Source: Lachnospiraceae bacterium A4 (GTDB lineage Bacteria; Bacillota; Clostridia; Lachnospirales; Lachnospiraceae). Taken from it: a stretch of 64,000 bases of DNA. Positions 5,510 to 17,048 of the stretch are shown one piece after another (the stretch's first letter is position 1; the number at the start of each line of letters is the position of its first letter). The notes beneath the pieces were generated by a model. That model did no database searches and was not told the DNA's origin. It was given only the letters and a program-made list of their open reading frames with translations. The stretch is taken from positions 22,409-86,408 of the forward strand of contig KE159566.1 in NCBI GenBank assembly GCA_000403215.2. The letters run 5' to 3'. The position numbers were made by a program, and so were the translations under genes.

Positions 5510-6847
5510 TCATTCTATTAAGGCTATGATTTGATCAATCGTATCCTTATCTGTGTGCTTCATCAGATAAGGAATCGTTGATTCAAAATTCTTCTTTTTC
5601 ACCCCCGATATCTTTCTGATATCAGTCCAACAGAAATCCTCTCCACTTTCTTTCAATCTTTTATACGCCCAAATGATCTTCCTCGCCCAGTTTTCAGGAT
5701 ATGGTTCTGTATACCTTTCGAAAATAGCCTTACATTTCGGCATATTTTGTAACTGCTGTCCCAAAAGCCCCAGTTCACGATACACAAGCCTTTCTGAAAC
5801 ACGTTCTGGTTTGCCGTTTTCATTAGCAGTTCCACTATATATACCCTCTGCTATCTTTTCCAACACAGGAGCATTTTCTGTATCCAGCAAATCCCAATCT
5901 ACAGGAACACTGTCTTTCATATAATGACTGTTTTGCTCCTGTTTAATCTTTTCTGCTGTCAAAGAAGGCAATGTTAATTCTTCCAGCTTGATTCCTAAGA
6001 AAAAAGCAGTCTGGCAGGTAACAAAAAAATCAAATCCACTCCCTAACAACGTTCTTTGAATCTGGTATATACTTGCTAGGCTGCATATTCCCATTTTACT
6101 GTAAAATTTATTCATATCCTCAGCAAGCATCTTTGTATGCCTGCTTCGTCCCGATGGTTTCAAATACTTCGTCCGGCTCATTCCGTCATATAAAATCGAG
6201 CTGATTGGAATATTATTCTCAAAATCCATCATAGCATCAAATACTAAATTGAAATATGCCGCATACTGATTCATCAATATATTATCTTCAAAAACAGCTT
6301 CGTTCTGGCATATATGGTTTTCTGCCGGACAAAATGTAAAGCTCTGTTCATTCTTTGCCGGAACATCTGATTCTATAAGTTTACACTTATGCTTTGCACA
6401 CGTACATATACTTCTAATCTGGTGCTTTCTATGCCAGTACGCTTCACCATAGGTTTCTCTATCCTCTTTGGCACATAATGGACAATACCGCAAATATCGC
6501 TCCCCTTCATTTCTGGGAAGAATAGGAAGCAAATAATGTATATCACAAAAATCATGTTTCAGATGGTATAGTGCCTTTTTCTTTTGCTCCAGCGGTATAA
6601 AACGTGCATACTGCGGATACATGGTATGATTGAAAATCAACTTATCCAAAGAATATATTTGTTCAATCTGTTTCTTAGCTTCGGGATTCAGATTGCCGAT
6701 AAATTCCTTGCTTGCATTATCAGATCTTTTGCAGAATAATTCCTGCATCGCTATCCTGTGAGAAAAACAGCCAGAGTGGACATAGTATCTGCAAAACCAA
6801 CTGTACACCAGTTCATCAGGATATATGACTGGAAAGTAAACAATCAT
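5510..6847 (-). CDS. TniQ/TnsD-family target-selection protein of a Tn7-like transposon
   Basis: A 445-residue protein with the TniQ N-terminal signature (FPVIYPDELVYSWFCRY) and a zinc-binding region at about residues 118-152 (RYCPLCAKED ... YWHRKHQIRSICTCAKHKC). The C-terminal half is helical and fits a TnsD-type DNA-recognition extension. TnsD proteins bind a conserved chromosomal site and recruit TnsC. Its ATG overlaps the tnsC stop by four bases (ATGA), so translation is probably coupled. No cas gene is nearby, so protein-directed rather than RNA-directed targeting is inferred. Confidence 0.85.
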   Translation of the reverse strand: MIVYFPVIYPDELVYSWFCRYYVHSGCFSHRIAMQELFCKRSDNASKEFIGNLNPEAKKQIEQIYSLDKLIFNHTMYPQYARFIPLEQKKKALYHLKHDFCDIHYLLPILPRNEGERYLRYCPLCAKEDRETYGEAYWHRKHQIRSICTCAKHKCKLIESDVPAKNEQSFTFCPAENHICQNEAVFEDNILMNQYAAYFNLVFDAMMDFENNIPISSILYDGMSRTKYLKPSGRSRHTKMLAEDMNKFYSKMGICSLASIYQIQRTLLGSGFDFFVTCQTAFFLGIKLEELTLPSLTAEKIKQEQNSHYMKDSVPVDWDLLDTENAPVLEKIAEGIYSGTANENGKPERVSERLVYRELGLLGQQLQNMPKCKAIFERYTEPYPENWARKIIWAYKRLKESGEDFCWTDIRKISGVKKKNFESTIPYLMKHTDKDTIDQIIALIE

Positions 6848-8088
6848 ACTGCCACCTCCACGACTGTCATATGTTCCTTCAACAGCTTCACAATATCCAT
6901 ATTTTCATTTTTAGCTGTAACTACCAAATCAGCGATTGTAAATTCTACTTTATTCACATCCTTTTCTGGAAGATTTACATCCTTAACAGCTGCTTTTCTT
7001 TTTGGCTTGGTAGTCTGTTTTTTCTGTTTCGGGTGTATAAATCCATGCAGCATAGACAGCCGCTGCTGATATGCTTCGTTTAAGGATTCCAGATTCAGAA
7101 CTTCTTTACCGTTGAGAATGGCTATTTCCTGTGCATCATGAATAAGGGAAACGACGACCGATATATTGCCAGAAGTATGTTCATAGAGCCATTCCATGAC
7201 TGCATCTGTTATCTCTGTTTTCTGCTTCACATACTGATAAGAAAATACCGTTTCACAAAATTTCCTGAAATTTGTCCCATACTCCATAACATCATACCGT
7301 AATCCCAATGACCTGCGGGCAAGCTGCACCGCCTGTTCAAAAAATACTGCACTCTCAGGTGTCCCCACCATACAGATTGATATGCCGCTGTTATTGATAA
7401 GCTGTGTAAGCATTCCTACAAGGCTTCTGCCATTTTTGCTGCTGCATACGTTCTGAATCTCATCCACTATCAGCAATCCGATATGGTTTAATGCCACCTG
7501 ACTTACATTTCCGATCAGCATATCCGTTGTCGTTCTCGCACGTAATGCATTCTGATAATATTTTCCGTCTATGACTTCATCTACTTTCCTGAGAATCTCC
7601 AGCAGCAGCCCTTTCACAGAAGAATCAAAGGGACACTGGACACAGATACAGGGAATAATCTTCGAATATGGATTCTCCACTTCAATCACATGATTTTCGG
7701 TAATCAGCGCAATTGCCCTGCTGATCGCTGAACTTTTGCCAGTACCAGATGCGCCGATAATTGTAAAGCTATCAGAACCTCCTATAATACCTCTGTACTC
7801 CTGCTGCATAACAGCTTTGTAATTCTGATTCTGCTGTTGTACTGCTAGTTTTGTTCCTTTCTTTTGTAACGACCGCAGCAGTGCCAGATACAGTTTGCTA
7901 TAGATTTCCAATGACATTTGAGATGGGACGTAAATTCTGTAGAGAGCAGAAAGTTCCATAAGACGTACAGGAACATCCGCATTACGAATGTCAGCACTGT
8001 ACTCTGGCAGCACTTCCAACGCAGACAGTAAGTCATCCCCTGATTTCATTGCTGGCAGAATGTTAATAATATCTGAAAGATTAGTCAT
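6844..8088 (-). CDS. tnsC: TnsC/TniB-family AAA+ ATPase
   Basis: A 414-residue AAA+ ATPase with Walker A IGASGTGKSS at residues 111-120 and Walker B LLIVDEIQN beginning at about 205. TnsC-type proteins couple target recognition by TniQ/TnsD to the transposase and mediate target immunity. The C-terminal 80 residues are lysine-rich (PKQKKQTTKPKRK) and may contact TnsB or TnsA. The gene overlaps tnsB at its start and tniQ at its end, making a tight tnsB-tnsC-tniQ operon. All ATPase motifs are intact. Confidence 0.88.
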   Translation of the reverse strand: MTNLSDIINILPAMKSGDDLLSALEVLPEYSADIRNADVPVRLMELSALYRIYVPSQMSLEIYSKLYLALLRSLQKKGTKLAVQQQNQNYKAVMQQEYRGIIGGSDSFTIIGASGTGKSSAISRAIALITENHVIEVENPYSKIIPCICVQCPFDSSVKGLLLEILRKVDEVIDGKYYQNALRARTTTDMLIGNVSQVALNHIGLLIVDEIQNVCSSKNGRSLVGMLTQLINNSGISICMVGTPESAVFFEQAVQLARRSLGLRYDVMEYGTNFRKFCETVFSYQYVKQKTEITDAVMEWLYEHTSGNISVVVSLIHDAQEIAILNGKEVLNLESLNEAYQQRLSMLHGFIHPKQKKQTTKPKRKAAVKDVNLPEKDVNKVEFTIADLVVTAKNENMDIVKLLKEHMTVVEVAV

Positions 8089-9910
8089 GCTTTCTTCCCT
8101 CCTCCATAAAATCCTGATGACACCTTCTCTGTTCCCTTTTCCTTGTGCTGCGGATATCTTTTATATTCACATCTGTATGAACACAAGCATTACCAGCAAC
8201 AGTCTCAATATGCTGTGCTAGGTCAATCTGTGCCTGTAAATTATTTCTCATTTCACCTTTTGTAATATTCCTCTGACTGTCCTGAAGTTCCTTTACTGCT
8301 CCAAGGTCTTTTCCCTCGAAACGTGATTCTATCAGATTAAATTCTGTATATATTCCATTTTCCAAGACCCAAACAAAGGTCACATCTTCTGGATTATAAG
8401 CCACTGTCACTATACTGCCGGATAGATACTGTTCTGTATAGCCCTCACAATAATACCGCAGCCTGTTTACTTTCAGACCTGTCCGGTCGAATCTTCCTGT
8501 TGTTCTCGGCAGCAGCGTTAATACCAGCTCTTTATTTTGTACAGCTATCAGATTAGCCCCTATCTGTGATTTCCCCCATTCCCAAATACAGGATGCATAG
8601 GGTTTTACTTTATCGGCAATCATGACTTCGGTATAGGGAAAGTTCTTTATAATCCGCCGGGAATTATAATAGATAATACAATGAAGAATAATCTTCTCAA
8701 AGTCCATCATGGTCAGACAGGCATCTTTGCGGTAATCATGTGCCCCACGTTCCTGATAATCCGGCTCAATTACACCTTTTCCTTTCAGATATTTCTTATA
8801 TAAATCCTGTATCAGATCAAAGAATTTCTCTACCTGTCCTTTCAGTTCTGGTCTGTACGATGGAAGATTGACCACAGTAACCCCAAGCTCTGCAATCTGC
8901 TCAAAGTTCTCCGACTTATACTCACTCCCCATATCGGTAACAAACGTGGCTGGCAGCATGTCACAGTCCCAATCTTTTTTCTGAACCGAAATACCAAAGC
9001 GGCTGCACCACTCACATTTATCAGATATGATATTCAGCATTAGTCCTCTAAGACTGTACACCCCACCTTCCCATGAAAGGGAATATCCACAGCACAGACT
9101 GCTAAAGGCATCAATACAGGCTGTTAAAATCGGTCTGCCAACCAAACTTCCTGTATCATTGACAAGATAAATGTCACAAACAGTAGCGTCCAGCATCCCT
9201 ACACCAACAGATGAAGCAAACTCCCGTACTCCTTCGCCTGTAAGGGGTCTGTTATTCCTCTGATAGTTCTTTAATCCATCTCTGGAAATATAGAAGTTCT
9301 GCATCTTCCTTGTCTTACGGTAGAAATATCGAAACTGATAAAATGACGGATATTCTTCTGCCAATATTCCCATTGCATCACAATACTTCTCTTTGAGCAT
9401 CATTGTATATGCAGTCATAAGAGACTGCTTTTTTGTGGTATAGAAAAACCTGTTTAACGCCCAGCGCATATGTTTCTCATCCTGTGTCAGCTCCCTGTTA
9501 TCCTGACGTTTCTTCGGAGCAAGAGCAGTTATGTCCATATGAACCAGATAACAGCAGAGATAACTTCTAACTGTCTGCTTTGATATCTTATTTTCTGCTG
9601 CTATACTGCCAATCAACTGTGACCGCACACTTTCATCTGCAATGAAAGACAGAATTGGTGCAATCATCGTATACCGCTCATACATAATCTTCCTCTGCTC
9701 TGCATCCAAAGTATCGGCATCAGCTATAGTAATTCCTATAACCTCTGACAATTCATCTTCAATACATTCGGTATAAGATTTTAAAGACTCCAATTCCACC
9801 CATACAGGCATGGTCTGTTTCTTACAGTCTATAATCAGAACCCACTTTTCCTGAATCTCCAACACTCGAACAATCCTGCTGCCAGAACGGAGTAAATCAT
9901 ACTTCTTCAT
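8081..9910 (-). CDS. tnsB: TnsB-family DDE transposase
   Basis: A 609-residue Mu/Tn7-type transposase. The start is the ATG of MKKYDLLRSG at 9910; 19 further in-frame codons upstream belong to the overlapping tnsA reading. The catalytic triad is visible: D241 (MLDATV), D326 (FVTDMGSEY) and E361 (KGQVEKFFD), in an rve-type core, followed by a C-terminal beta-barrel region. TnsB binds the transposon ends and joins 3' strands to target DNA. The frame is intact, so the enzyme could act at least in trans or in cut-deficient, replicative form now that tnsA is broken. Confidence 0.88.
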   Translation of the reverse strand: MKKYDLLRSGSRIVRVLEIQEKWVLIIDCKKQTMPVWVELESLKSYTECIEDELSEVIGITIADADTLDAEQRKIMYERYTMIAPILSFIADESVRSQLIGSIAAENKISKQTVRSYLCCYLVHMDITALAPKKRQDNRELTQDEKHMRWALNRFFYTTKKQSLMTAYTMMLKEKYCDAMGILAEEYPSFYQFRYFYRKTRKMQNFYISRDGLKNYQRNNRPLTGEGVREFASSVGVGMLDATVCDIYLVNDTGSLVGRPILTACIDAFSSLCCGYSLSWEGGVYSLRGLMLNIISDKCEWCSRFGISVQKKDWDCDMLPATFVTDMGSEYKSENFEQIAELGVTVVNLPSYRPELKGQVEKFFDLIQDLYKKYLKGKGVIEPDYQERGAHDYRKDACLTMMDFEKIILHCIIYYNSRRIIKNFPYTEVMIADKVKPYASCIWEWGKSQIGANLIAVQNKELVLTLLPRTTGRFDRTGLKVNRLRYYCEGYTEQYLSGSIVTVAYNPEDVTFVWVLENGIYTEFNLIESRFEGKDLGAVKELQDSQRNITKGEMRNNLQAQIDLAQHIETVAGNACVHTDVNIKDIRSTRKREQRRCHQDFMEEGRKHD

Positions 9911-10060
9911 CAATGACCACACCCCAATCCATAACACCATGCCTGAGCCAGTATTCTCTTGAAGCATCCAGCAGTTTCACCGTCATAGGCTTCATCAAAA
10001 ATTTACGAAATACACACTCTCTTACCATCAAATCTCCGTCTGACTGAACGTCCATTAAGC

Positions 10061-10077
10061 CCCCAGCAGAGCTGGGG
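10061..10077. repeat. Left subterminal hairpin of the IS200-type element
   Basis: CCCCAGC-AGA-GCTGGGG, a perfect seven-base-pair stem 17 bases inside the left junction with tnsA. It matches the right hairpin in loop sequence. Confidence 0.75.
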
Positions 10078-10161
10078 AGAATAGAGTGAGCAGTAGCGAT
10101 CCCTAAAGTACCAAAAATAAAACCTCCATGTTATCATAGATTTGGGTCTAGGCAACCTAAT

Positions 10162-10169
10162 CAACAATA
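10162..10169. repeat. 8-bp target duplication (left) of the IS6-like element
   Basis: CAACAATA directly precedes the left terminal repeat. The same eight bases follow the right terminal repeat at 12088-12095. Eight base pairs is the normal target duplication of the IS6 family. Confidence 0.9.
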
Positions 10170-10259
10170 GGTAGTGTCAAATAATCTATGAAAAAACTGA
10201 GTCAAAAAAATAGGCTCGAATGAACCTCGAAAATTGCAGATATTAGTGTTTTTAAGACC

Positions 10260-10370
10260 TTGGGGCGTTGCCCCAAACCCCACAAGGGACTCGTCCCTTG
10301 ACCCATTGGCGGGCTCTGCCCGCACCCGTCCTCGCCGGATGGCAGGAAAAGGGCGCAGTCGCCCCCTTTT
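10260..10370. repeat. Array of four GC-rich hairpins in the IS6-like element
   Basis: Four successive short-loop hairpins: TTGGGGC/GCCCCAA (10260-10276), AAGGGAC/GTCCCTT (10284-10299), GCGGGC/GCCCGC (10309-10323) and AAAAGGGCG/CGCCC..TTTT (10347-10370). The GC content is far above the surrounding DNA. It follows the transposase stop on the minus strand, so it may end or protect the transcript. No credible coding frame is seen here. Confidence 0.6.
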
Positions 10371-10465
10371 CTGCTGGACAGGATTATCCGTGAGCTTTTT
10401 GTCAATAGACTTTCGCGGCATATCCTCACAGGCGGCGCGGCCGCCTGCTGCGGTATTCCACGGTT

Positions 10466-11938
10466 CTATTGACAACAGCTTCGCTCCGTCTGTGCAGTAC
10501 CGTTTTTCTGCATATTCAGGATGGTCTGCTGCCCGAGGAAGATGAGCATCTGCCATTTGCCGGGCATGTTGTCAGCGCCCTGCAGCATCTCCACTTCGTT
10601 GAGGACGTTGTATTTATTGTGTTTATGAGGGCGCAGGAAGTTATAGTAAGCGACCCAGAGCGCCAGATCATAGTTGGCACCGTCGATGCTGTCAAAGCCG
10701 TTTGTATGGCGGTAAGAGGCTTTATAAGTTCGGTTCAGGCGTTCGATCATCTGCTTGAATGGCCGGTATTCGGTAGAAACAGCATCGTCGTTGGTAAGTC
10801 CAATGACCTGGGTGATTTTAAATGTAAAGTCTCTGCCCAGCTTTTTTACGAACTCCATTGCGGCAAGAGGATACGCACTGTATCCGTCCGCAATGAACTT
10901 GAAGTTCTCCGGCAGTTTTGTAAGGTTCCGGAATGCCATACGCATTGCGAGGATACAGGGGCCTGCGCCGCGGTTATCAGACACCTGATAGCCGATGATG
11001 GAGCGTGTTGCAGCGTTCATGATGAGCCAGACGTAGTTTTTGATGCCACGGATTTTGATGTATGTCTCATCAGCCGTGAACACGTCCCCTTTTTCGTAGG
11101 GGTACTGGTCAACAAAGGGCTTGACGCAGATGGCGGCAGTTTTACAGTAGTTGGCGATCTGCTGGTGGGAGATGCTGATGTTGTAAAGGTCTTTCAAAGC
11201 CTGTGAGGTCTTGCGCAGGGAAAGGCCGAGATTGACATGGAGTGTGAGGCACAGGGACATGACATGGGCGTTATGCTTACTGAATTTGAGGGAAGAGGCA
11301 TTCCTGGGGAGTGTATTTAAGTCCATACTGAAAAAATCCATCGTGAACTCACGGTAGATGTAGTGGAGCTTGTATTTATTTTTTCCATAGTCCTCATCGA
11401 GATCAGCCCTGTCAACTTTCTTGAGGTTATGAAGGTAATAGGGACATTTCGGGTTTACGCATTTATGGACGATAAAGTGCTTTCGGTCTTTCTTTGGGAC
11501 AAGTGCATTGCCGCAGTGGGGACAGCGCAGCTTAACACAGGAGAAGCGGCTTTCTGAAGGAGAAAACCTCGCAGCACAGACTTTGCAGAGGATCTGACCC
11601 TTCGAGCCATTGTTTTTGTAAAGGAATGGTTTCGGGGCATTGCAGCGTGGGCAGGAGCAGTCATCAGGGATGTCGCACTCTGAACGTCGGCTGACAGGGC
11701 GTATTTTCCTGCCATAGCGTTTTTCGTAGTAAGGGATAAGCTCTTTATAAGTCCAGTCCTGACGAAAGTCAGTGATAAGGGGGAGTTCGTCGATCTTGAA
11801 CTTCTGGTATTTTGGGGAATGGGAATCATCAAAGGCCCACTGCCTAATGGGGATGTATCTGCATACGAAGTTGATCAGCCAGCAGTTTTGCTGGTAAAGA
11901 AACTGAATCAAAGAGAGTAAATAGGGAATAATATCCAT
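10466..11938 (-). CDS. IS6-like DDE transposase
   Basis: The preferred start is the ATG of MDIIPYLLSL at 11938 with AAAGGAAA upstream; a 22-residue longer reading to 12004 is possible. The protein (490 residues) begins with a hydrophobic helix. Zinc-ribbon-like CxxC pairs follow (CPRCNAP, CKVCAARF, CPHCGN, NPKCPYY), then a DDE core with VFTADETYI, FIADGYSAY and MIERLNRTYKASYRHTNG as the D, D and E segments. The frame is intact. The core resembles IS6/IS240 transposases, fused here to an unusually long N-terminal region. Confidence 0.82.
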   Translation of the reverse strand: MDIIPYLLSLIQFLYQQNCWLINFVCRYIPIRQWAFDDSHSPKYQKFKIDELPLITDFRQDWTYKELIPYYEKRYGRKIRPVSRRSECDIPDDCSCPRCNAPKPFLYKNNGSKGQILCKVCAARFSPSESRFSCVKLRCPHCGNALVPKKDRKHFIVHKCVNPKCPYYLHNLKKVDRADLDEDYGKNKYKLHYIYREFTMDFFSMDLNTLPRNASSLKFSKHNAHVMSLCLTLHVNLGLSLRKTSQALKDLYNISISHQQIANYCKTAAICVKPFVDQYPYEKGDVFTADETYIKIRGIKNYVWLIMNAATRSIIGYQVSDNRGAGPCILAMRMAFRNLTKLPENFKFIADGYSAYPLAAMEFVKKLGRDFTFKITQVIGLTNDDAVSTEYRPFKQMIERLNRTYKASYRHTNGFDSIDGANYDLALWVAYYNFLRPHKHNKYNVLNEVEMLQGADNMPGKWQMLIFLGQQTILNMQKNGTAQTERSCCQ

Positions 11939-12087
11939 AAGCAATGATTTTCCTTTCAGTGTTTGTGGGTTGGTAATAGTATTTACACAAAAAAGGGAGG
12001 TCATTGCTTTTTCTTTTGAAAAAGTGGTGTAATCCTTGAAAATATGGGGTTTGTAATAAAAAACATAGAGGTAGATTTGACACTACC

Positions 12088-12095
12088 CAACAATA
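12088..12095. repeat. 8-bp target duplication (right) of the IS6-like element
   Basis: CAACAATA directly after the terminal CACTACC, matching 10162-10169. Confidence 0.9.
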
Positions 12096-12111
12096 GCAGG
12101 AGGTATCTATA

Positions 12112-12522
12112 ATGGATAATCAGATTTTAGCACATACCAAGTATAATTGCACGTATCATATTGTTTTTATTCCGAAATATCGCCGGAAAGTAATGTATGG
12201 GAAGATTGGGAAAGAGGTTGGCGAGATATTGTCCACAGTATGTAAAATCACAGGAGTAAAATTGATAAAAGGCGGAGTATGTCCAAACCATGTACATCTG
12301 TATGTTTCGATTCCGCCCAAGATGAGTATCTCGGAAGTGATGTCAAAATTGAAAGGAAAGAGTGCCCTGATGATATTTGACCGACACCCAGAATACAGGG
12401 ACAAGTATGGCAGACATTTTTGGGCAAGAGGATATTATGCCGAGACGATTGGGCAAGTGAACGAAGAGACAATCAAAAAGTACATCGAAGAGCAGGAGGA
12501 ATGCAGTAGAATAGAAGGATAA
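12112..12522 (+). CDS. tnpA: IS200/IS605-family TnpA transposase (HUH Y1)
   Basis: A 136-residue TnpA of the IS200 type. The HUH metal motif reads CPNHVHLYVSIPPK at about residues 60-73, and the catalytic tyrosine is expected in the segment YYAETIGQVNEETIKKY near residue 120. AGGAGG lies before the ATG. The protein starts MDNQILAHTKYNCTYHIVF, as in intact family members, so it is complete. There is no tnpB/IscB accessory gene, which fits IS200 rather than IS605. Its promoter region now begins inside the IS6-like element, so its expression may be altered. Confidence 0.92.
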   Translation: MDNQILAHTKYNCTYHIVFIPKYRRKVMYGKIGKEVGEILSTVCKITGVKLIKGGVCPNHVHLYVSIPPKMSISEVMSKLKGKSALMIFDRHPEYRDKYGRHFWARGYYAETIGQVNEETIKKYIEEQEECSRIEG

Positions 12523-12561
12523 AGAGCCTCTTTTAAGAGGCAGCCAAGTACCAGAGGTTAG

Positions 12562-12626
12562 TGAAATACTGCCTATAGGCAGCACCGAAAAAGGGGTTGC
12601 TTAGACACCGCCTATAGGCGGTACCG
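12562..12626. repeat. Paired palindromic repeats in the IS200 3' region
   Basis: Two related units, TGCCTATAGGCAGCACCG near 12569 and CGCCTATAGGCGGTACCG near 12609, each a self-complementary GCCTATAGGC core followed by ACCGAAAAA. They lie between tnpA and the right subterminal hairpin and probably form RNA or single-strand DNA hairpins. Confidence 0.55.
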
Positions 12627-12653
12627 AAAAATGCCCCGGAGGGGTTCATCCAA

Positions 12654-12674
12654 ACCACCGGCAGAGCCGGTGGT
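12654..12674. repeat. Right subterminal hairpin of the IS200-type element
   Basis: ACCACCGGC-AGA-GCCGGTGGT, a perfect nine-base-pair stem with the same AGA loop as the left hairpin, 18 bases inside the junction with the 5' part of tnsA. Confidence 0.75.
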
Positions 12675-12929
12675 CAAGCCGTATGGCTGTGATTTGACAC
12701 AGACAAAATCCGATGTGTATTCTCCTGCATCAAGCCCATCCAGTAAAACATTACATCTGATCTCCTGAATCCCGTTATTCGCCTGTAGCAGATCGGCATA
12801 AGCGTACTGGATCGCATCATACGTTTTGCACACCTCCCCGCACTTTTCAATCATCCGCTTTTCACATCGCCCTTTAAAGTTCTTTTTTCTCATCCTTGCA
12901 AAACCTCCCATATGGGAACATCCTGCCGC

Positions 12930-13064
12930 TTTCCCAAAAACAACTCCCAAAAACAAAATGAATCCTCTTTTGGGGAATTGAAGCCTGCACTTTTTGGGAA
13001 ATGAATAATCTACAATCCTCTGTTTATAAGAGTTTCAAGACAATCATCACTTTCCCAAAAACGC
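12930..13064. repeat. TTTCCCAAAAA-type repeats, candidate TnsB sites at the transposon end
   Basis: Three forward copies (TTTCCCAAAAACAA at 12930, CTCCCAAAAACAAA at 12944, TTTCCCAAAAACGC at 13050) and two inverted copies (TTTTGGGGAA near 12969, TTTTTGGGAAA near 12991) fall within 135 bases. The cluster lies just upstream of tnsA on the side facing ppdK. Multiple transposase-binding repeats at each end are a hallmark of Tn7-like elements. The first copies overlap the possible tnsA leader. Assignment as binding sites is inference. Confidence 0.55.
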
Positions 13065-13082
13065 AATCAGGAAATATCACCA

Positions 13083-13332
13083 TGTCGTAGGGCACTGTAA
13101 TTTATTCTATAAAGGGCAATCTTGTTTATCCACTTTATCCTGCTAAAGCGTGCCCCCTACTCCATGGTGATTGTGCGCGGATTATTCCCTGAATCCAGTG
13201 TTTATGCAAGGAAAGGATAGTTCGCAGAACAAAAAAACGACCTTGCATTTCTTTTTGCAAAGTCGTTTTTTTCTATGTCGGGGGCTATGTGATTTTGCCC
13301 TTTTCAGAATAAATTACAGTGCCCTACGACAT
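13083..13332. repeat. 250-bp inverted-repeat element between ppdK and the Tn7-like end
   Basis: An outer inverted repeat of about 38 bases: ATGTCGTAGGGCACTGTAAT at 13082-13101 onward, with its complement ending CCTACGACAT at 13332. Only a few mismatches occur across the arm, up to AAAGGGCAA. Weaker inner copies in opposite orientation lie at about 13152-13169 (GTGCCCCCTACTCCATGG) and 13274-13288 (ATGTCGGGGGCTATG), so two local hairpins can compete with one long stem. The centre holds the ppdK terminator. No target duplication is evident. It may be a MITE-like element or a pair of transposon-end sequences. Confidence 0.6.
13231..13272. terminator. Bidirectional terminator downstream of ppdK
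   Basis: AAAAAAACGACCTTGCA and TTGCAAAGTCGTTTTTTT pair around TTTCTTT. A-tract and T-tract flank both sides, so it can end transcription in either direction. It is about 75 bases after the ppdK stop. Confidence 0.75.
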
Positions 13333-13346
13333 CGAACTTGCATTCG

Positions 13347-15983
13347 CTAGTTCTGGCTGATCGCCGCCTGCGCCGCCGCCAATCTAGCAATAGGCACTCT
13401 AAACGGTGAGCAAGACACATAATCGAGTCCAATCTTATGGCAGAACTCTACGGAAGAAGGATCTCCACCGTGCTCGCCGCAGATACCTACATGAAGCTTC
13501 GGATTTACTGGCTTGCCGAGTTTCAGAGAAAGCTCCATCAACTTGCCGACACCTGTCTGGTCAAGCTTTGCGAACGGATCATTCTCGAAGATCTTTGTGT
13601 CATAGTAAGCATTTAAGAACTTACCAGCATCGTCTCTTGAGAAACCGAATGTCATCTGTGTCAGATCGTTTGTACCGAAGCAGAAGAAATCAGCCTCCTT
13701 AGCGATCTCATCTGCTGTGAGCGCTGCTCTTGGAATTTCGATCATTGTACCTACTTCATACTCTAACTCAATGCCTGCTGCTGCGATTTCAGCATCTGCT
13801 GTCTCAACAACAACTTTCTTAACAAATTTAAGCTCTTTTACTTCACATACAAGAGGAATCATAATCTCAGGCTTCACGTTCCAGTCAGCATGAGCTTTCT
13901 TTACCTCGATTGCCGCACGGATTACAGCCTTTGTCTGCATCTTGGCAATTTCAGGATAGGTTACAGCAAGACGGCATCCTCTGTGACCCATCATCGGGTT
14001 GAACTCATGGAGGGAAGCAATCAGTGTCTTGATTTCCTCTACGGATTTACCCTGTGCGTTTGCAAGCTTCTCGATGTCCGCTTCATCTGTAGGAACAAAC
14101 TCATGAAGAGGCGGATCAAGGAATCTGATTGTAACAGGATTTCCTTCAAGAGCCTCATACAGTGCCTTGAAGTCACTCTGCTGGTAAGGAAGAATCTTCT
14201 CAAGCGCTGCTTCTCTCTCCTCTACTGTGTCAGAACAGATCATCTCGCGGAATGCTGCGATTCTGTCCTCTTCAAAGAACATATGTTCTGTACGGCAGAG
14301 ACCGATACCTTCTGCACCAAGCTCTCTTGCTTTCTTTGCATCTGCCGGTGTGTCTGCATTTGTTCTTACCTTCAATGTTCTATACTTGTCAGCCCATGCC
14401 ATAACTCTGCCGAACTCGCCAGCGATCTGTGCATCAACTGTCGGAATCTGACCATCGTAAATGTTACCAGTTGTACCGTCGATTGAGATGAAATCTCCCT
14501 CATGGTACTCTTTTCCTGCCAATGTGAACTTCTTGTTCTCCTCATCCATAGCGATGTCGCCGCATCCAGATACACAGCATGTACCCATACCACGTGCAAC
14601 TACGGCTGCGTGTGATGTCATACCGCCGCGGACTGTCAGGATACCCTGAGAAGCCTTCATACCAGTGATATCTTCTGGTGATGTCTCAAGACGTACAAGG
14701 ACAACCTTCTCGCCTCTTGCATTCCAGTTCTCAGCATCTTCTGCTGTAAACACGATCTTACCGCATGCAGCACCCGGTGAAGCGCCAAGTCCCTTGCCAG
14801 CCGGTGTAGCAGCCTTCAATGCTGCGGCATCAAACTGAGGATGCAGTAATGTATCAAGGTTACGAGGGTCAATCATAGCGACTGCCTCAGCCTCTGTCTT
14901 ATGTCCCTCATCTACTAAATCGCAGGCAATCTTCAAAGCTGCCTGTGCTGTTCTCTTACCATTGCGGCACTGTAACATATAGAGCTTCTTGTTCTCAACT
15001 GTGAACTCCATATCCTGCATGTCATGATAGTGGTTCTCGAGTGTCTCGCAAACCTTGATGAACTCTGCATATGCCTCTGGGAACTCCTGCTCCATCTGCA
15101 CAATCGGCATCGGTGTACGAACACCTGCAACAACGTCCTCGCCCTGTGCATTCTTTAAGAACTCACCCATGAGCTTCTTCTCGCCTGTAGCCGGATCACG
15201 TGTAAATGCTACACCTGTACCAGACTCATCATTTAAGTTACCAAATACCATCGGCATTACGTTTACAGCCGTACCCCATGAATAAGGAATATCGTTGTCA
15301 CGACGGTATACGTTTGCACGAGGGTTGTCCCATGAACGGAATACAGCCTCGATCGCAAGCTTTAACTGCTCTACAGGATCAGAAGGGAAGTCCTTGCCAA
15401 GCTGGTTCTTGTACTCAGCCTTGAACTGCTCTGCCAGTGTCTTTAAATCTGCTGCTGTGAGGTCTACGTCGTACTGAACGCCCTTCTCCTCTTTCATCTT
15501 GTCAATCAGCTGCTCAAAATATTTCTTACCAACTTCCATAACAACGTCTGAGAACATCTGGATGAAACGTCTGTAAGAGTCATATACAAAACGCTCGAAT
15601 GCAGGATCAGAATTGCCCTTGATCATCGCATCAACCACTTCGTCATTTAAGCCAAGGTTTAAGATCGTATCCATCATACCGGGCATAGATGCACGTGCAC
15701 CTGAACGTACAGATACAAGTAAAGGATTCTTCAGATCGCCAAATTTCTTTCCGTTTACCTCTTCCATCTCTTTTACGCCAGCCATAGCCTGAGCCATGAT
15801 CTCGTCATTGATCTTACGTCCGTCTTCATAATACTGCGTACAAGCTTCTGTTGTGATTGTGAACCCCTGTGGTACAGGGAGTCCGATGCTTGTCATCTCC
15901 GCAAGGTTTGCACCCTTTCCGCCGAGAAGATTACGCATGCTCATGTCGCCTTCTTTGAATGAATATACCCACTTTTTACTCAT
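13347..15983 (-). CDS. ppdK: Pyruvate, phosphate dikinase
   Basis: An 878-residue enzyme interconverting pyruvate, ATP and phosphate with phosphoenolpyruvate, AMP and pyrophosphate, central to PEP metabolism in anaerobes. The N-terminal ATP-grasp domain begins WVYSFKEGDMSMRNLLGGKG. The swivelling domain has the phosphohistidine motif GGMTSHAAVVARGMG (near residue 455). The C-terminal PEP/pyruvate barrel ends with GICGEHGGDPSS, whose cysteine is catalytic (near 831). Length and motifs match the clostridial enzyme, so it is complete. Its 3' end faces the tnsA side of the Tn7-like module, as glmS does in Tn7. Confidence 0.97.
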   Translation of the reverse strand: MSKKWVYSFKEGDMSMRNLLGGKGANLAEMTSIGLPVPQGFTITTEACTQYYEDGRKINDEIMAQAMAGVKEMEEVNGKKFGDLKNPLLVSVRSGARASMPGMMDTILNLGLNDEVVDAMIKGNSDPAFERFVYDSYRRFIQMFSDVVMEVGKKYFEQLIDKMKEEKGVQYDVDLTAADLKTLAEQFKAEYKNQLGKDFPSDPVEQLKLAIEAVFRSWDNPRANVYRRDNDIPYSWGTAVNVMPMVFGNLNDESGTGVAFTRDPATGEKKLMGEFLKNAQGEDVVAGVRTPMPIVQMEQEFPEAYAEFIKVCETLENHYHDMQDMEFTVENKKLYMLQCRNGKRTAQAALKIACDLVDEGHKTEAEAVAMIDPRNLDTLLHPQFDAAALKAATPAGKGLGASPGAACGKIVFTAEDAENWNARGEKVVLVRLETSPEDITGMKASQGILTVRGGMTSHAAVVARGMGTCCVSGCGDIAMDEENKKFTLAGKEYHEGDFISIDGTTGNIYDGQIPTVDAQIAGEFGRVMAWADKYRTLKVRTNADTPADAKKARELGAEGIGLCRTEHMFFEEDRIAAFREMICSDTVEEREAALEKILPYQQSDFKALYEALEGNPVTIRFLDPPLHEFVPTDEADIEKLANAQGKSVEEIKTLIASLHEFNPMMGHRGCRLAVTYPEIAKMQTKAVIRAAIEVKKAHADWNVKPEIMIPLVCEVKELKFVKKVVVETADAEIAAAGIELEYEVGTMIEIPRAALTADEIAKEADFFCFGTNDLTQMTFGFSRDDAGKFLNAYYDTKIFENDPFAKLDQTGVGKLMELSLKLGKPVNPKLHVGICGEHGGDPSSVEFCHKIGLDYVSCSPFRVPIARLAAAQAAISQN

Positions 15984-16133: not shown

Positions 16134-17048
16134 TTACAGCTTCATGATCTTTCTCTCCTCTTTGTCATACAAATATAACGAATACGAGAGTATTTCTTCT
16201 GCGCTGACTTGTGTATCATTGATTTCTTTGATCATATTTTTGATCTCGCTGCTCTCCTCAAGATGTGCTGTCGGCAGAAGCAAAAGCTCATGTACAGACG
16301 ATGGAATGATATAAAAGCTGCTGCCCACAGCTTCTGCAAAATCCCGGACCAGATTCGGATACAGCATACAGGCCGCACCTTCGACTCTGCGTTGATTGCT
16401 GAGCACATACATCGGGACATTGTCCGAAAATGCTTCTTCTCTGTACTCAGCAAATTCTTCTGGATTCTCCGCTCTCGTGATCTCACACAGCACCTCGAAC
16501 ATGCTTTTGATCTCATATTTCTGAAGCCGCTGTGTGTTTTCTTTTGCTGCCTGATACAGCTTCTCCACCGAGACATCCCACAGTTTCAGATGCACATTAT
16601 GTATCAGTATTGACGCCGTGCCAATGTCCTCCTGCGCAACCATGCATTGAAAAACGATAGACAAATCCAGAAATTCGATGTGCGGGAGATCCTCGAGCAG
16701 CTCTTTGTTTTTCTCTGTGTTGATCAGCTTGTAGACGATGCGGTCCTTCACGCGCTCATAGTCCAGAAAATACCGCATATCGACGCTCTGGTTGACTTTG
16801 TTTCTGTGATAGGTATCCATCACATCATTCACGACATTGAGCAGTGTTGCCCTGCCCTTCATATATTCTTCATAGTAATTGTTGAGATAGATGGTTGGCG
16901 AGATATTGCTGTCATCCTGCGTCACCGTGAGGCCCCTCAGCACAACGCCATTGTTTTTTGTGACATCATTGAGCCGCACTTTATAGCAGTCTCCTGTCCT
17001 TCTCTCTACTTCCTCCCGCACCAATGTTGTAAAATAGGTAAATTCCAT
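16134..17048 (-). CDS. DUF5688 family protein
   Basis: A 304-residue soluble protein beginning MEFTYFTTLVREEVERRTGD, with YEEYMKGRATLLNVVNDVMDTY in the N-terminal third. This matches the DUF5688 family, common and multi-copy in Lachnospiraceae. Members have no assigned biochemical role. The C-terminal part resembles a small globular domain (FYIIPSSVHELLLLP, ending KEERKIMKL). No transmembrane segment or signal peptide is present. It stands alone between efp and ppdK on the same strand. Function is unknown. Confidence 0.75.
   Translation of the reverse strand: MEFTYFTTLVREEVERRTGDCYKVRLNDVTKNNGVVLRGLTVTQDDSNISPTIYLNNYYEEYMKGRATLLNVVNDVMDTYHRNKVNQSVDMRYFLDYERVKDRIVYKLINTEKNKELLEDLPHIEFLDLSIVFQCMVAQEDIGTASILIHNVHLKLWDVSVEKLYQAAKENTQRLQKYEIKSMFEVLCEITRAENPEEFAEYREEAFSDNVPMYVLSNQRRVEGAACMLYPNLVRDFAEAVGSSFYIIPSSVHELLLLPTAHLEESSEIKNMIKEINDTQVSAEEILSYSLYLYDKEERKIMKL

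Follow-up and report, generated by a model that had tools for sequence, protein, structure and literature searches.

A tnsA gene split by nested IS200 and IS6-like elements in a Tn7-like transposon behind ppdK in Lachnospiraceae bacterium A4

The 64,000-nucleotide stretch analyzed here (the window, C40:22409-86408 of the 6.96 Mb, 40-contig genome of Lachnospiraceae bacterium A4) carries a Tn7-like transposon adjacent to ppdK, the gene for pyruvate phosphate dikinase, and the tnsA gene of this transposon is split by an IS200 copy that is itself interrupted by an IS6-like element. Three nested elements had been described at 9897-12893 in an earlier note on this DNA; all three are present, and every detail of them that was measured agrees. 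The region is very probably explained by insertion of the transposon behind ppdK, entry of the IS200 copy into tnsA, and entry of the IS6-like element into the IS200 copy, with loss of TnsA as the outcome. The insertion nest as such is ordinary; the parts worth a second look are found across the clade to which the transposon belongs, namely a small TnsA whose active site is altered, and the targeting of ppdK or guaA with exchange of the target selector TniQ.

The innermost, IS6-like element occupies 10170-12087 on the minus strand and has the length and ends first reported for it, 1918 bp with perfect 13-bp inverted repeats, GGTAGTGTCAAAT and ATTTGACACTACC. Directly adjoining it are the left and right copies of an 8-bp duplication, CAACAATA, at 10162-10169 and 12088-12095 on the plus strand. 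Its 512-residue DDE transposase (10466-12004, minus strand) matches Pfam DDE_Tnp_IS240 (PF13610) at 1.8e-9 and NCBIfam transpos_IS6 (NF033587) at 76.1 bits, under the cut-off of 125, which is why "IS6-like", the original wording, is the proper one. A second copy of the element, 100% identical, is observed on contig C12, where one side runs into N, and another, 92% identical, on C7, where the flanks lack matching 8 bp.

The IS200 copy spans 10044-12692 on the plus strand and measures 723 bp, as had been estimated, once the nested element and a single duplicate are subtracted. Its transposase gene, tnpA (12112-12522, plus strand), encodes a 136-residue Y1 protein that matches Y1_Tnp (PF01797) at 2e-42 and NCBIfam NF033573 at 154.3 bits, above the cut-off of 55. 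Hairpins are formed by the outermost 60 bases at each end (z -2.59 and -3.99); no target duplication was seen at the ends of the copy. The boundaries, estimated from the flanks of IS200 copies and the tnsA frame, are uncertain by one nucleotide owing to a shared base. Five other IS200 copies in the genome supply empty IS6-like sites, of the kind that the earlier note had suggested seeking in related genomes, in that they read uninterrupted across the insertion point. Those on C34, C6, C3, and C11 (97-99% identical) contain CAACAATA once, the C11 match ending short of the right end, and the copy on C37 (92%) reads CTACAATA at this site. The single CAACAATA in uninterrupted copies establishes the 8-bp duplication, and, given these independent intact copies, a chance origin of the 13-bp repeats and the duplication appears implausible. 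A lone IS200 left end is also present at C1:746637-746734 (L018), with flank letters equal to those of the C6 copy; no further IS200 parts matched near it.

The two pieces of tnsA lie on the minus strand at 12693-12893 (N-terminal, 67 codons) and 9897-10043 (C-terminal, 48 codons and the stop), and neither contains a stop or a frameshift. Removal of both insertions restores CVKSDGDLM in frame, as originally proposed: alignment with the relatives opens no gap at the IS200 insertion point, and the restored junction is therefore correct in length. In most relatives, the junction reads [CV]-x-K-x-[DN]-G, with K67 in at least 90% of 45 rows, and an alternative IS200 boundary 3 bases on would put Q in place of K67. 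Pfam returned nothing meaningful for the two window pieces, and no second copy of this TnsA was found in the genome. At 9897-10055, an ATG from the IS200 end stands in frame with the C-terminal piece, forming an open reading frame of 52 residues.

Relatives were gathered through TnsB by a pattern-based scan of a species-genome collection, which yielded 116, of which the best 80 were kept (L045-L124); their titles are nearly all Bacillota, with one metagenome-assembled genome labeled Sulfurospirillaceae (L098). The TnsA of L128, from a same-genus genome, is identical in its letters to that of the Lachnospiraceae record L050. Unsplit tnsA genes, which the earlier note had proposed to look for in related genomes, are found here: a tnsA of about 115 residues lies upstream of tnsB in 79 of these best 80 of 116. 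The last, L072, has no tnsA hit and only 108 bp upstream of tnsB. Damage is visible in 3 of the 79, as a deletion in L065, an in-frame stop in L107, and an in-frame fusion to tnsB in L090. In L107 (7667-8011, Propionispira arboris), the stop falls at codon 107, a Trp that is invariant in the 45-row alignment. In L090 (922-3003), tnsA and tnsB form one frame, by eye as if by deletion between two LVID-coding stretches; the genes are apart in its close relative L111, and the fusion may be natural or a draft-genome error. In L082 (6651-8001), tnsA is intact and is separated from tnsB by an additional open reading frame.

The remaining genes of the transposon, all on the minus strand, are open, as first described. 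The tnsB gene (8081-9910) encodes a 609-residue transposase without internal stops that matches Mu-transpos_C at 3.3e-6 and in which D241, D326, and E361, invariant in six rows, form by eye a putative DDE triad. It is followed by tnsC (6844-8088), encoding a TniB-like AAA ATPase of 414 residues (PF05621, 2.9e-13), and by a tniQ/tnsD-like gene of the ppdK type (5510-6847), encoding a 445-residue target selector (PF06527, 6e-21). The element is Tn7-like in having TnsB with an AAA ATPase TnsC, a TniQ/TnsD selector, and a fixed insertion position beyond a conserved gene. In the genome, a tnsB of this type and a right end each occur once.

The attachment site is the 3′ end of ppdK (13347-15983, minus strand; TIGR01828, 1380 bits), a gene that is also the neighbor in 12 named relatives. 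The right end of the transposon is a 249-bp terminal cassette (13083-13331, minus strand). Its terminus, TGTCGTAGGGCA..., stands at 13331, 15 bp away from the ppdK stop (13347), and recurs in inverted form at the other limit of the cassette, where the copy ends at 13083. Three exact TTTTTGGGAAA boxes at 12930-12940, 12991-13001, and 13051-13061, similar to boxes in relatives, are candidate TnsB sites; with up to one mismatch, the box occurs seven times in the window against a shuffle mean of 2.61, and the three exact ones all fall within 12930-13061. The 5-bp flank at 13332-13336, TTCGA on the minus strand, is the presumed target duplication, and the unoccupied ppdK site of the same-genus L156 carries the same flank bases. 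Unoccupied ppdK sites in same-genus genomes read through the insertion point (L156, ...GGTTCGATAAAATTG; L152). In 13 of 13 ppdK loci, window included, the terminus TGTCG... lies 32-34 nucleotides beyond an AAAQA-coding motif near the end of ppdK, and its distance from the ppdK stop ranges between 6 and 17 bp; constant spacing relative to a coding motif is expected if a TnsD-like protein recognizes the site. At guaA, the terminus lies 6-7 bp beyond the stop in 21 of 22 loci and starts with TGT or, in four, TAT; the L107 locus has no usual terminus at its end. These distances were read by eye from the letters for L049 and L055 (ppdK) and for L092, L095, L100, and L112 (guaA).

Left ends are visible in two relatives. 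The left end in Sporomusa ovata bears a cassette of this kind, and the two ends of that element, some 47.6 kb from each other, are both bordered by AAAGA; the ends in Pelosinus propionicus fall on two separate contigs and are both bordered by TAATA. The left end of the window element was not found in the genome in either of two pattern searches that allowed as many as 3 mismatches, which returned only the right-end pair or nothing; the same terminus search in 14 other genomes left 2 without a match (G248, G249). The left end may lie in an assembly gap, since the start of C40 is about 35.7 kb away from the right end and a gene near this start (C40:6627-7640) is 60% identical to the gene before a left end in L053. 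An arrangement of cassettes is seen in L053 itself, where a left-end and a right-end cassette stand head to tail, 4 bp apart (6952-7479), as if two elements were in tandem behind one ppdK (L054, same contig). The possibility that the 249-bp unit is an unrelated miniature element was rejected: it forms the right end at both ppdK and guaA insertions and the left end in S. ovata and P. propionicus. The full cassette pattern was not found in more distant guaA elements, which have only a similar terminus.

The intact TnsA of the clade is a 115-residue protein with the predicted PD-(D/E)XK fold of the TnsA catalytic domain; the model aligns only to residues 32-167 of 1f1z, and the C-terminal domain PF08721 is lacking. 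PF08722 is matched by 29 of 45 members at E values up to 1, the best being 2.3e-5; the L082 protein scores 22.4 bits, under the cut-off of 26.5, Pfam gave no hit for the L047 protein, and only chance matches came from searching solved structures with a profile of the small TnsA. We take the catalytic residues of Tn7 TnsA to be E63, D114, and K132. They were compared over 74 TnsA rows, with L065, L090, L107, and L097 set aside by length, L072 for want of a hit, and L082 because its tnsA was recognized only afterward; L097 proved intact on reinspection. The position of the catalytic Asp keeps Asp in 74 of 74 rows, the Glu position holds Gln in 69, Met in 4, and Gly in 1, and the Lys position, a column placed by spacing, holds Val in 65, Ile in 5, Leu in 2, Cys in 1, and Thr in 1. 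Five long TnsA proteins keep Glu, Asp, and a Lys, the Lys being read by eye from the rows. A Glu/Asp/Lys triad is also named for TnsA in PMC13228271, where residue numbers give an Asp-to-Lys distance of 16 for PseCAST, and this distance is 16 residues in L037 and L038, 15 in L027 and L135, and 18 in Tn7. Val78 falls at the Lys site both by this spacing and by distance to a conserved Trp; in a profile-profile alignment, the Tn7 Lys132 instead stands opposite a gap. Either way, there is no Lys at the catalytic site. Arg80 (71 of 74) or Lys85 (72 of 74) could serve in its stead, and the invariance of Asp62 and Glu76 in all 74 rows suggests that metal binding is kept. Because the clade TnsA lacks the canonical Glu and Lys, a role in cut-and-paste cannot simply be presumed from Tn7.

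In the history that we favor, the Tn7-like transposon would have inserted behind ppdK, with its own ppdK-type TniQ most likely directing it there; an IS200 copy would then have entered tnsA between codons 67 and 68; and the IS6-like element would have entered the IS200 leader by ordinary, 8-bp-duplicating transposition. This order, which agrees with that of the earlier note, is the most economical one. Several observations weigh against parts of this account. Nesting alone leaves the order unfixed, and the end hairpins and tnpA of the IS200 copy are intact, as they would be had the IS6-like element entered IS200 elsewhere and the composite, some 2.65 kb in all, subsequently entered tnsA as a single unit; this order is nevertheless improbable, as the five other IS200 copies have no IS6-like insert and no other composite copy was found in the genome. 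Near-identical copies of both insertion elements elsewhere in the genome could have led to contigs being misjoined at repeats, but an assembly artefact is hardly credible, given an exact duplication of 8 bp and tnsA pieces that abut without loss on a single contig. For the timing of the tnsA break, the suggestion of a recent event holds in part: it is consistent with the undamaged pieces, the 100% identical IS6-like copy, and a low ratio of nonsynonymous to synonymous substitutions (dN/dS), which support it indirectly. This ratio is 0.03-0.11 for the tnsA pieces in six comparisons with finite dS (two more had saturated dS), of which those with L045 and L046 give 0.04-0.11, and is similarly low for tnsB and tnsC, 0.09-0.13 against L045 and L048. 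The dS values are near saturation in several comparisons, however, and dN/dS mostly reflects the time before the break.

Under the favored history, full TnsA could not be made, and TnsB, TnsC, and TniQ could, their frames being open. IS200-type elements can excise as single strands. Because the nested element leaves tnpA and the hairpins at both ends intact, TnpA might in principle cut the IS200 copy out and so restore tnsA. In Tn7, TnsA frees the 5′ ends, and relatives without TnsA make cointegrates that are resolved by a resolvase or by recombination (PMC11406308 and PMC8649781). By analogy, if a left end exists, TnsB could join 3′ ends at ppdK sites with no TnsA-dependent release of 5′ ends, giving cointegrates or abortive joinings. 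The suggestion that the transposon could now be limited to replicative joining was not borne out: no left end was found, the element is single-copy, no replicative product was seen, IS200-type elements can excise, and the canonical Glu and Lys are missing. The window element is more likely now immobile or nearly so, replicative joining being conceivable in principle, and, with no second copy in the genome, nothing shows movement since tnsA was broken. Two further readings concern what the break would mean. The transposon may be a dead remnant, its left end gone and the tnsA break without consequence as nothing can move; this has in its favor the missing left-end match, the single copy, and the transposase copies and phage-like genes beyond tniQ. 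We regard it as doubtful but well worth keeping in mind, as tnsB, tnsC, and tniQ are open with low dN/dS and the left end may sit in an assembly gap at the C40 start. Alternatively, the clade TnsA may no longer cut and act as a structural partner, transposition being replicative anyway and the IS200 copy removing only a helper. The replaced Glu and Lys in 74 of 74 rows, both kept by the five long TnsA proteins, speak for this reading, which is nonetheless unlikely given the invariant Asp62 and Glu76; also against it, there are known PD-(D/E)XK enzymes in which the Lys has migrated or been replaced (PMC1189080).

Targets were labeled by eye from the C termini of neighboring genes, with samples checked by family models: ppdK in the window and L048, guaA in L067, L111, and L074, gpmI in L075, and fba in L031. 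Among 30 TniQ proteins compared, a set limited to loci with a ppdK or guaA label and a TniQ hit of more than 300 residues, every one of the 30 (21 guaA, 9 ppdK) shares its target with its nearest relative, an agreement that could mostly be shared descent. More telling is L063, whose TnsB is 91.6% identical to that of the ppdK element L060, yet which sits at guaA and whose TniQ shows 68.5% identity with guaA-type proteins against 31.6% with those of the ppdK type. A ppdK-like TnsB with a guaA-type TniQ at a guaA site fits a choice of target by TniQ. Neither ppdK nor guaA was found described as a Tn7-like site in the literature searched, supplements aside, and neither "guaA" nor "dikinase" appears in the main text of PMC8649781 or PMC10293859. 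We tentatively propose, as one joint reading that falls a little short of being favored, that a large clade, mostly of Clostridia and Negativicutes, has a minimal, single-domain, 115-residue TnsA with Gln-Asp-Glu-Val in place of Glu-Asp-x-Lys, that its 5′ ends may be released by a different chemistry or not at all, and that it homes to ppdK or guaA through an exchangeable TniQ.

A second, distant Tn7-like element is present on C14 (L027), with a TnsB 31% identical to the window TnsB and a long, canonical TnsA that matches Tn7 TnsA at 2.4e-40 and has PF08721. Beyond tniQ on the window contig, L021 13108-18661 contains phage- or plasmid-like genes for a serine resolvase, a Rad52-like protein, a YqaJ exonuclease, and DUF932. 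The serine resolvase (PF00239, C40:13108-13794) is only a candidate member of the transposon, whose left limit was not located. Three related transposase genes fall within about 9 kb (L021 2048-3583, 4762-6234, and 9675-11210); Pfam was run on the first, and the first and third are near-identical by eye from the list of open reading frames. Two DUF5688 proteins are encoded at 16134-17048 of the window, beyond ppdK, and at L021 14444-15487, on the far side of tniQ. Of ten proteins submitted to PADLOC, one had helix-turn-helix matches and a second had a weak match to DrmC.

The nest amounts to a clean tnsA knock-out in an otherwise open transposon and, with its intact relatives, forms a natural pair for the effect of TnsA loss. 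The clade offers compact TnsABC-TniQ systems with two main housekeeping-gene targets, useful for how TniQ reads a site, and in one clear instance a difference in TniQ is matched by a difference in target. If the small TnsA cuts, it would represent a different way of releasing 5′ ends; if it does not, the elements would be replicative despite carrying tnsA.

The two insertion elements resemble known families to different degrees. Similar to IS6-family elements with IS240-type DDE transposases, the innermost element has a DDE domain, short inverted repeats, and an 8-bp duplication; members of that family are typically shorter, and the window element, at 512 residues and 1918 bp, is below the NCBIfam IS6 cut-off. 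The middle element shares with IS200 (IS200/IS605 family, tnpA only) a Y1 transposase, hairpins near both ends, and no visible target duplication, and differs only in carrying the nested element. The outer element and its relatives share with Tn7 of Escherichia coli (TnsABC+D, attTn7/glmS) genes in the order tnsA-tnsB-tnsC-tniQ/tnsD, a constant spacing between the coding end of a conserved gene and the insertion beyond it, ends of the form TGT...ACA, a 5-bp duplication in the two-ended relatives, and the TnsA catalytic-domain fold. The main differences from Tn7 are that the clade TnsA has about 115 residues and no C-terminal domain, with other residues at the Glu63 and Lys132 positions, that the targets are ppdK or guaA, and that the terminus is repeated in inverted orientation some 250 bp inward of the ends. 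Like the TnsA-less Tn7-like elements, type V-K CRISPR-associated transposons (CAST) and the Tn5053 group, the window element now has no full TnsA and has a serine resolvase gene on the same contig; unlike them, it belongs to a clade in which tnsA is present, lost here by insertion, and no cointegrate is seen.

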